A stretch of DNA of 43,042 nucleotides from Clostridiales bacterium (GTDB taxonomy: Bacteria; Bacillota; Clostridia; Christensenellales; HGM11417), in contig JAAYQN010000052.1 of assembly GCA_012519285.1 (NCBI GenBank), positions 1 through 43,042 of the forward strand, written 5' to 3'. The notes below the pieces were generated by a model. That model was not told the DNA's origin. It did no database searches and was given only the letters and a program-made list of their open reading frames with translations. Shown one piece after another: positions 1 to 18,361 of this stretch. The translations under genes and the position numbers were made by a program. The first letter of the stretch is position 1, and every line of letters starts with the position of its first letter.

Positions 1-38
1 AATTGCTTTCTTTTCTCTGTATCTTTTGTTGTCAGCAT
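1..38 (-). CDS. Transposase, N-terminal 12 codons only (partial at window edge)
   Basis: The ATG is at 36-38 on the minus strand and 12 codons (MLTTKDTEKRKQ) are visible before the window ends. The first eight residues match the start of the decayed transposase at 18209 at six positions, and four of the matching codons (Leu, Thr, Lys, Glu) differ only at the third base, as expected for a selected coding sequence. An AAGG about 10 bases upstream may serve as a weak ribosome binding site. Whether the gene is intact cannot be judged from this window. Confidence 0.55.
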   Translation of the reverse strand, partial: MLTTKDTEKRKQ

Positions 39-68
39 AATCAAAAACCTTATTATATTTTATACCTA

Positions 69-78
69 TATTATACCA
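69..78 (-). promoter_or_regulatory. Extended -10 promoter element of the insertion sequence
   Basis: On the minus strand this reads TGGTATAATA, an extended -10 box (TGnTATAAT), 31 bases upstream of the transposase ATG. No good -35 box is present. The second copy has the same box at 18172-18181. Confidence 0.5.
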
Positions 79-127
79 CAAAACCCCTCTGAACTTAAGC
101 GTTCAAAGGGGTTTTTCTACAGTCTGA

Positions 128-152
128 ACCGCTCTTTTTGAGCGGTTTTTTA
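128..152. terminator. Hairpin terminator between the insertion sequence and tRNA-Thr
   Basis: An 8-bp stem (AACCGCTC / GAGCGGTT, the first A shared with the IS end) with a TTTTT loop is followed by T6 on the plus strand. Read from the tRNA (minus strand) the hairpin lies 3' of the gene, but its expected U-run is replaced by the end of the insertion sequence. This suggests the element landed in the 3' flank of the tRNA-Thr terminator. Confidence 0.6.
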
Positions 153-228
153 TGGAGCTGTTACCGGGACTTGAACCCGGGACCTCGTCCTTACCAAGGA
201 CGTGCTCTACCTCCTGAGCCATAACAGC
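153..228 (-). tRNA. tRNA-Thr (anticodon GGT)
   Basis: The 76-nt cloverleaf on the minus strand starts GCTGTTA and ends TAACAGC plus discriminator T and encoded CCA (153-155). The anticodon stem CGTCC/GGACG encloses the loop TTGGTAA, giving anticodon GGT, which reads ACC and ACT codons. The T-loop GTTCAAGTC is standard. A consensus promoter lies just upstream (255-283). Confidence 0.97.
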
Positions 229-2979: not shown

Positions 2980-4134
2980 ATGAGGATACTGCACACATCC
3001 GACCTTCACCTCGGAAAACGCATCGAGGGAAAGGACAGGCTGGGCGAGCAAAGAAAGGTGCTTGAGGAAATCTGCGGCATAGCGGAAGAAAAGTCAGCGG
3101 ACCTTGCCCTGATATGCGGCGACGTGTACGATTCATACATCCCCCCCGCCGAAGCGGAGGACCTTTTTTACGAGTTCGTCGAGGCCTTGAGTTGCTGCGG
3201 CAAGAGGCTTGTCGTCGCCATCGCGGGAAACCACGACGACCCCGTCAGGCTGTGCGCGGCGTCCTGCCTTGCCCAGAAGCAAGCCATTATAATAAGCGGC
3301 GGGGGAGATGAGCGCTTTAAAATCCCCCAAAGCCCCGACATAAGGCTTTTGGAGCAGGGCAAAAATTATATAAAGGTGGAAATCGGAGGGGAGAGGGCGA
3401 CCATAGCCTTTTTGAGCTACCCTTCAGACGCGCGGCTTGGCGAGGTGGCGGACGAGCGCGGCTACAGCGAAAAGATAAGCGGCTACCTTGGGGAGGCAAG
3501 CGCAAGTTTCAGCCCCGACAGCGTAAACGTCGTCATGGCCCACCTATTCGCAGCGGGCGCCGCTCCCATAGGCGAGGAGAGGGAGATAGAGGCGGGCGGG
3601 CTCAAGGCGTGTTCTTTAAACGTCTTTTCCGATAAGTGCCATTACGTTGCGCTGGGCCATATCCACAGGTGCCAGAGGCTGAAAGACAACGCCTTCTACA
3701 GCGGCTCCATACTGCAGTACAGCGCGGGCGAGGAGAGCTCAAAGTGTGTGCTGCTGGCCGAAGCCTATAGCGACGGCTTGAAGAAGGTTGAGAAAATACC
3801 GCTGCTATCTGGCAAAAAGATAATAACCTACGCAGCTGAAGGTGTTATGCCCGCGCTTAACTTTTTAAAAAGCGGCGTGGAAGATTACGTCTACCTCAAG
3901 ATAAGGCAGGACAGGCCCCTTTTGTACGACGAGAGCAGGCTGCTGAGGTCCTTTGACAACGTATTGGGGATAGAGCTTGAGACAGAGCTTTCCCAGTGCG
4001 GGCAGGAGAGGGCCAGCCGCAAAGGGCTTTCCAGGCGGGAGCTTTTCTGCGAGTTTTACAGGCACAGATACGGCGGCGAGCCCGAACCAGAGCTTGTCAA
4101 CCTGTTTCTCGAAATAACGGAGAGCGAGACATGA
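2980..4134 (+). CDS. sbcD: Exonuclease SbcCD, nuclease subunit D
   Basis: The Mre11-family metallophosphoesterase subunit of SbcCD cleaves hairpins and protein-blocked DNA ends. All phosphoesterase motifs are visible in order: DLHLGK (N-terminus), GDVYD, GNHDDP, MAHL and GHIH. The length, 384 residues, is normal. The start is ATG at 2980, preceded by AAGGAGGG; a longer reading from 2941 lacks conserved sequence. The gene overlaps sbcC by 4 bases (ATGA), which fits translational coupling of a two-subunit complex. The 253 bases upstream hold two divergent promoters, the one for sbcD being weak by eye (TACAAT at 2946-2951). Confidence 0.95.
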   Translation: MRILHTSDLHLGKRIEGKDRLGEQRKVLEEICGIAEEKSADLALICGDVYDSYIPPAEAEDLFYEFVEALSCCGKRLVVAIAGNHDDPVRLCAASCLAQKQAIIISGGGDERFKIPQSPDIRLLEQGKNYIKVEIGGERATIAFLSYPSDARLGEVADERGYSEKISGYLGEASASFSPDSVNVVMAHLFAAGAAPIGEEREIEAGGLKACSLNVFSDKCHYVALGHIHRCQRLKDNAFYSGSILQYSAGEESSKCVLLAEAYSDGLKKVEKIPLLSGKKIITYAAEGVMPALNFLKSGVEDYVYLKIRQDRPLLYDESRLLRSFDNVLGIELETELSQCGQERASRKGLSRRELFCEFYRHRYGGEPEPELVNLFLEITESET

Positions 4135-17754: not shown

Positions 17755-18012
17755 TTACCTTTTTTTCTTCAAGAGATATTTTCTCCTCGTCGCCTCGCCG
17801 CCGCGCAGGTGCCTTTGTGAGAGGTTGAGCTTGAGAACATTCTTCACACTGGCGTAAAGTTTCCTGTCTATGTCATAGAGCCTCTCCGTGCAGTCCTTGT
17901 GCACGGTGCTCTTGCTTATCTCGAACACTTTGGCCGCTTCCCTCACCGTGCTGCCAGTCTCGATTATATAATTTGACACTTCGATAACCCGCTTGACTAT
18001 GTAATCTTTCAA
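17755..18012 (-). CDS. spoIIID: Sporulation transcriptional regulator SpoIIID
   Basis: A DNA-binding protein of 85 residues that tunes sigma-E- and sigma-K-dependent genes in the mother cell during sporulation. The helix-turn-helix (REAAKVFEISKSTVHKD, about 24-40) and the basic C-terminal box (RHLRGGEAT) match Bacillus SpoIIID closely. I place the start at TTG 18012, which aligns with the Bacillus start (MHDYI / LKDYI) and has GGGGG eight bases upstream; the open frame continues to 18027. A sigma-E-like promoter is at 18044-18072. It is a strong marker of an endospore former. Confidence 0.95.
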   Translation of the reverse strand: MKDYIVKRVIEVSNYIIETGSTVREAAKVFEISKSTVHKDCTERLYDIDRKLYASVKNVLKLNLSQRHLRGGEATRRKYLLKKKR

Positions 18013-18043
18013 GGCCACTTCCCCCAAATCAGTTGTCGGTAAT

Positions 18044-18072
18044 AATATATGGGAGAAAACGCGCCTTTATGA
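18044..18072 (-). promoter_or_regulatory. Candidate sigma-E promoter of spoIIID
   Basis: Minus strand: TCATAAA (18066-18072), 14 bases, then CATATATT (18044-18051), resembling the sigma-E pattern (ATA-rich -35, 14-15 bases, CATAnnnT). It lies about 32 bases before the TTG start. spoIIID is a known sigma-E target in Bacillus. Confidence 0.5.
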
Positions 18073-18093
18073 TATTTTTTGCCCTAAAACGAC

Positions 18094-18119
18094 AAAAAAA
18101 CCGCCCCAGCTACAGGGCG
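18094..18119 (-). terminator. Terminator-like hairpin flanking the decayed insertion sequence
   Basis: On the minus strand CGCCC-(8 bases)-GGGCG is followed by G and T7. No intact minus-strand gene lies just upstream of it. It immediately borders the insertion-sequence remnant, as the hairpin at 128-152 borders the left-edge copy. Confidence 0.7.
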
Positions 18120-18122
18120 ATT

Positions 18123-18361
18123 TCAGTCTGTAGAAAAACTTCTTTAAATTGTAGATTTTAAAGGGGTTTAATGGTATAATAAAGGAAAAAGGTGTAGGGG
18201 TAGGGAAAATGCTAACGGAAAAGGATAGAGAAGCGGAAGCAGTTAAGAGTAATATCAATAGAGGACTTGGTTTCAGAGGACCATTTATTGCGTAAGGCCT
18301 ATGGGCGCGAGAAAAGAAAACCCGACATCCTTTCACTAAACCGCCTTTTTCTACGCTCTGA
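18123..18361 (+). mobile_element. Internally deleted insertion-sequence remnant (MITE-like, about 239 bp)
   Basis: Terminal repeats TCAGTCTGTAGAAAAAC (18123-18139) and CTTTTTCTACGCTCTGA (18345-18361) are inverted copies matching at 13 of 17 positions. Inside are the same hairpin region, extended -10 box (18172-18181) and start codon as in the element at 1-127. The transposase start is followed, after a frameshift, by an IS1182/DUF772-type N-terminal motif (IEDLVSEDHLLRK) and then directly by what looks like the 3' end of the gene and the right terminal repeat. The catalytic core is therefore deleted. No target duplication is obvious. Confidence 0.75.
18209..18339 (+). pseudogene. Transposase remnant (N-terminus frameshifted and fused to the last codons)
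   Basis: ATG 18209 with GGGTAGGG upstream opens MLTEKDREAEAVKSN. The reading then continues in the +1 frame as ISIEDLVSEDHLLRK, the conserved N-terminal segment of IS1182/IS5-type transposases. The DDE core is absent; a third frame reads MGARKENPTSFH and stops at 18337-18339, just before the right terminal repeat, which fits the natural C-terminus. The unshifted frame stops at 18295 after 28 codons. Confidence 0.65.

Follow-up and report, generated by a model that had tools for sequence, protein, structure and literature searches.

Our analysis indicates with high confidence that an IS1182-type insertion sequence entered at the foot of the terminator hairpin behind tRNA-Thr, that it probably recognised the hairpin as a structure, and that the whole hairpin was duplicated on each side of the element. 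The site lies at one edge of our window, the stretch of DNA analysed here (contig C88, 43,042 bases), which belongs to a genome of 1.3 Mb in 94 contigs. Hairpins lie flush with the ends of such elements, are unrelated in sequence between copies, are duplicated whole (18-35 bp), and occur singly in sites free of the insertion sequence (IS). Hairpin targeting by IS1182 elements is already published; what may be new to the literature is that the entire hairpin is duplicated across the clade. The element in the window is thus of the IS1182 type with its known hairpin-targeting habit, not a new kind of element, and it is the insertion mechanism that is now better resolved.

The initial annotation had placed an insertion-sequence end beside the terminator hairpin of tRNA-Thr, which our results confirm (Table 1). 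A few bases past the CCA of the tRNA lies the hairpin AACCGCTC-AAAAA-GAGCGGTT, whose end is exactly where the element starts; in the window it reads AACCGCTC-TTTTT-GAGCGGTT, flush with the terminal repeat. The hairpin had been drawn at 128-152 and is real, but its unit is 127-147, the bases at 148-151 being the A/T tract on the tRNA side. Upstream of tRNA-Thr, on the minus strand at 255-283, there is a perfect match to TTGACA-17-TATAAT.

Table 1. Features of the two IS1182-type elements and the tRNA-Thr terminator in the window
Feature	Position	Strand	Basis
IS1182-type insertion sequence end, contig break inside the element	1..126	-	Identical 127 bases open C20; terminal repeat common to IS1182 elements
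First part of the transposase frame (MLTTKDTEKRKQ...), truncated at the contig end	1..38	-	Sequence; N-terminus like those of the decayed copy and of IS1182 transposases
Subterminal 15-bp hairpin, terminator-like, facing transcription from the tRNA	80..115	-	Fold; comparable hairpins inside other ends
Terminal inverted repeat CAGACTGTAGAAAAAC	111..126	-	Sequence; like ends elsewhere
Target hairpin, 21-bp target-site duplication, tRNA-side copy	127..147	.	AACCGCTCAAAAAGAGCGGTT on the minus strand
A/T tract, original, tRNA side of the bidirectional terminator	148..151	.	Sequence; tRNA-Thr terminators in three relatives
tRNA-Thr (GGT)	153..228	-	ARAGORN
Terminator-like hairpin, flush with the second element on its left	18098..18123	.	
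Decayed IS1182-type element, 237 bp, internally deleted, with both terminal repeats and a remnant of the transposase N-terminus	18124..18360	+	

It was predicted that, given a duplication of the tRNA-Thr hairpin, the other end of the element would be bordered by a second copy carrying a T-run. Searching the genome for the window hairpin returned exactly one other match, on contig C80 (C80:4974, L103), where the junction CGCCTTTTTCTTCTCTCTG/AACCGCTCAAAAAGAGCGGTTTTTGC stands 125 bases from the contig end. This copy of the 21-bp hairpin is in direct orientation, carries the T-run, and adjoins the element's other end, with the partner terminal repeat CAGAGAGAAGAAAAAGGCG. The U-run of tRNA-Thr, which had been regarded as replaced by the element, is therefore displaced to the element's far side and not lost, being kept beside the C80 hairpin copy as a result of whole-hairpin duplication by the element. 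Without the insertion, the site would be CCATAAAA-AACCGCTCAAAAAGAGCGGTT-TTTGC, a normal terminator resembling those found behind tRNA-Thr in three relatives of the same family, which served as uninserted comparisons. The IS element was absent from the family relatives searched, and the source genus is represented by no other genome. From the duplicated hairpin common to both, we infer that the element links C88 and C80 as neighbouring contigs; no single contig spans it, and its body is absent from the assembly. A shared hairpin can in this way be used to scaffold broken assemblies.

The element end in the window also has a TATAAT-like stretch before its first codons, MLTTKDTEKRKQ, on the minus strand. 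Bases 50-152 fold with -38.4 kcal/mol (z -7.4), the element's hairpin having TTTT at its foot, and subterminal hairpins similar to this one were seen in the other element ends that were folded. In the predicted transcript, the element's own hairpin follows about 11 nt beyond the hairpin of tRNA-Thr. The initial annotation had raised altered 3' processing or read-through of the tRNA; damage by the insertion, or a strong effect of this kind, is unlikely, since the hairpin past the CCA is intact and the element brings a 15-bp terminator-like hairpin of its own at that short distance.

Other copies in the same genome exhibited the same arrangement next to different hairpins. Contig C20 also begins with the 127 bases of the window, and C8 with 35 of them; the outer hairpins there (AGGCATGC..GCATGCCT and AATCCCTTTA..TAAAGGGATT; in full AGGCATGCTCAAAGGCATGCCT and AATCCCTTTAGCTTTAAAGGGATT) are unrelated to each other and unlike that of the window. 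Older, diverged element ends on C18, C28, and C65 each have a flush hairpin, while the hairpin at the C5 end is short and two bases off. A gene beside the C5 end was considered as a transposase and rejected, as it is not one. On C65, a 170-bp non-autonomous derivative of the same family (C65:11383-11552, L079) lies between two copies of the 22-bp hairpin AACTGCCTTTTTCAAGGCAGCT. Across nine independent insertions of the genome, flush-stem scores gave Fisher p values of ~2e-8 against random positions and ~1e-6 against intergenic positions.

The second element of the window had been described, at 18094-18361, as a matching case. It is an element with a flush hairpin on its left, but it is decayed, and its right flank (from 18361) offers only a weak A/T hairpin, without duplication. 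It retains the frame EKRKQLRVISIEDLVSEDHLLRK, which is the N-terminal motif of IS1182 transposases. The left hairpin is situated within 18028-18123, upstream of spoIIID (17755-18027, minus strand), in a divergent intergenic region, and hence at the 3' end of neither neighbouring gene; the gene that it once served may be gone.

For the IS1182 family, ISfinder gives long or palindromic repeats. The terminal inverted repeats of our element are of the IS1182 type (CAGACTGTAGAAAAAC in the window and CAGAGAGAAGAAAAAGGCG on C80, with like ends across the clade), and its target is a hairpin, as in this family. The likeness to IS1182 elements (NF033551, e.g., ISEfa7) comprises CAGACTGTAGA-type terminal repeats, the N-terminal motif LVxxDHLLRK, probably related transposases with a DDE_Tnp_1_6 domain, and hairpin targets. 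Neither PF13751 nor an IS1182 transposase turned up in searches of the source genome, the body of the element being missing from the assembly; with its own transposase body unassembled, the placement of the window element rests on its ends, its N-terminus, and its close relatives. Both the N-terminal codons of the window element and the decayed copy agree with the N-terminus of IS1182. An exact scan of 84,980 species genomes with the 19-base terminus yielded nine records, seven of which are real ends, from Clostridia and one Streptococcus, contributing eight ends in total (L013 has one per side). All eight adjoin hairpins of unrelated sequence, with flush-stem scores like those of the source genome; the other two records (L018 and L019) look like chance matches in genes, and their scores are not alike. 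L006 likewise looks like a chance match within a gene, and L008 is probably another. Terminus and hairpin are both present in the Streptococcus record (L015), and its partner end was not found within the 8 kb examined. In L014, the terminus follows a transposase fragment with matches to both PF13751 and the NCBIfam model for IS1182 (NF033551), the score falling below the curated IS1182 cut-off because the sequence is fragmentary; full-length hairpin-duplicating relatives pass this cut-off.

In 27 insertions of the IS1182 clade (24 tabulated, plus L038, L040, and one from S. simulans), the target-site duplication is the entire hairpin. The tabulated repeats have a median length of 22 bp (range 18-35) and are as long as the hairpin, and 22 of the 24 are terminator-like, with five or more A among the eight bases before or five or more T among the eight after. 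The duplicators span Clostridia, Bacilli, Fusobacteria, and alpha- and gammaproteobacteria. When seven identical 1.58-kb copies in G573 were aligned, six were flanked by exact direct repeats that are whole, different hairpins. Whole-hairpin duplication was also seen in further Clostridia, Acetoanaerobium, and Cetobacterium, on plasmids of Enterococcus, Brevibacillus, Aminobacter, Rhizobium, Klebsiella, and Providencia, and in L038 and L040, both of which branch near the base of the clade. For the Klebsiella IncC insertion, the flanks joined with one hairpin were identical over 500 bases to IS-free IncC plasmids, with 415 records reaching at least 99%, and for the Providencia insertion, the corresponding query matched four IS-free plasmids at 100% (500 bases). 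Two more distant DDE elements found by the same transposase search (G762 and G634) differ in making 4-bp duplications, with no hairpin at their ends. In the transposase tree, all hairpin duplicators fall in one clade, separate from G762, a long branch whose place is unsure; G634 was too distant and was left out.

These data bear on several other explanations. Viewed from C88 alone, where the stem is followed directly by the element, part of the target might seem to have been replaced and the U-run of the tRNA terminator lost, and IS1272 and TnSha1 have indeed been reported to remove the hairpin wholly or partly. Stem-loop replacement removes the hairpin and leaves no target-site duplication, whereas at this site both hairpin copies are present; given the T-run of the second copy on C80, together with exact duplications elsewhere and perfect empty sites, replacement is very improbable. 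The presence of a hairpin at nearly every end, and of further hairpins just inside the element ends, could also suggest that the hairpins are part of the element or travel with it. However, identical copies carry unrelated outer hairpins, and the hairpins occur once in IS-free plasmids, which contradicts such an origin and reduces its probability to almost nothing. The initial annotation had taken the hairpins for target sites, and both comparisons that it proposed agree with this: C20, C8, and the eight scanned ends adjoin unrelated hairpins, and the IS-free IncC and Providencia plasmids show a single hairpin.

Selection after insertion deserves consideration as well, because sites behind genes are expected to be tolerated and most targets resemble gene terminators, A- and T-tracts included; the transposase could then be blind to structure, with only insertions behind terminators surviving. 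Yet the element ends abut the stem foot exactly and what is duplicated is the hairpin itself, a register that intergenic positions lack and that selection for harmless sites would not produce, and the 4-bp duplications of more distant transposases also count against selection alone, which we consider highly unlikely. Under insertion with recognition and duplication of the hairpin, the transposase of an IS1182-family element would have recognised the hairpin behind tRNA-Thr by its folded form, probably an extruded cruciform, and not by sequence, and would have placed the element at the foot of this bidirectional terminator. The 3' ends of the element would be joined to the 5' feet of the stem-loops of both strands, presumably cut at these feet, and gap repair would then leave each side with a full hairpin copy, one next to the original A-tract and the other next to the original T-tract. 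The duplicated hairpin and the subterminal hairpins of the element may together keep the flanking transcription units terminated. For the clade as a whole, we lean towards the view that structure sets the duplication: the extruded hairpin would be cut at its 5' feet, the length would equal the hairpin (18-35 bp), and both sides would receive an intact terminator, with the replacement by IS1272 as an exception arising from a cut at the 3' feet.

Most DDE transposons produce target duplications of fixed length. Here the length follows DNA secondary structure, so that recognition of extruded hairpins by the transposase is directly testable. This also explains how such elements can lie behind tRNA and other genes while doing little harm, and it offers a way to locate IS1182 ends, and the small derivatives of these elements, by seeking the repeated terminator.

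Insertion into terminator hairpins with partial deletion was described for TnSha1 and IS1272 by Furi et al. (PMC4923244), and IS1272, which is filed in the family of IS1182, is reported to replace hairpins (PMC5678879). Our elements share with IS1272 and TnSha1 (PMC5678879, PMC4923244) the insertion into stem-loops, often gene terminators, without a sequence consensus; there, however, the hairpin is reportedly replaced or partly deleted with no target-site duplication, whereas here it is duplicated whole, an outcome that the IS1272 papers (PMC5678879, PMC4923244) raise solely as a hypothetical route. No IS1272 record turned up in the collections searched. According to a review cited in PMC4923244, some IS1182 members target palindromes, and excerpts of a large survey of IS neighbours (PMC9208149) contain nothing on terminator targeting by IS1182. 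Group IIC introns (PMC7923331) also insert beside rho-independent terminator stem-loops but are ribozyme retroelements with a reverse transcriptase, and the analogy is one of target choice only.

Several insertions depart from the common pattern. Two different hairpins flank the element in L013, L016, L050, L069, L074, and L119, and no hairpin was present at the end on C60, on the left side of ISEfa7 in L114, or at one S. simulans copy. In L065, the hairpin copies (1451-1485 and 3008-3042) are reverse complementary with a flipped loop, unlike the direct repeats elsewhere. Among the several copies on the S. simulans plasmid, some retain a 27-bp hairpin duplication, and two others share one left hairpin in opposite orientations and differ in their right hairpins, as would be expected from recombination between copies after duplication. 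The mismatched hairpins could instead result from each end attacking a different hairpin and deleting what lay between; mismatched elements include tiny derivatives (59 bp in L013 and ~163 bp in L016), and homologous recombination seems more difficult at such sizes. The hairpin shared in opposite orientations by the two S. simulans copies points to a duplicated hairpin separated by recombination, and we regard deletion between two targets as a doubtful but still appreciable possibility. Neither for L119 nor for L074 did a joined-flank search reveal a plasmid in which the two flanks are adjacent. The derivative in L013 (5986-6044), hardly more than two terminal repeats, is a 59-bp palindrome with perfect ends and lies between two different terminator-like hairpins beside tRNA-Gly. 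In L115 (565-620), ISEfa7 is located in a hairpin beside the remnant of an earlier IS1182-type end, apparently a case of nested targeting.
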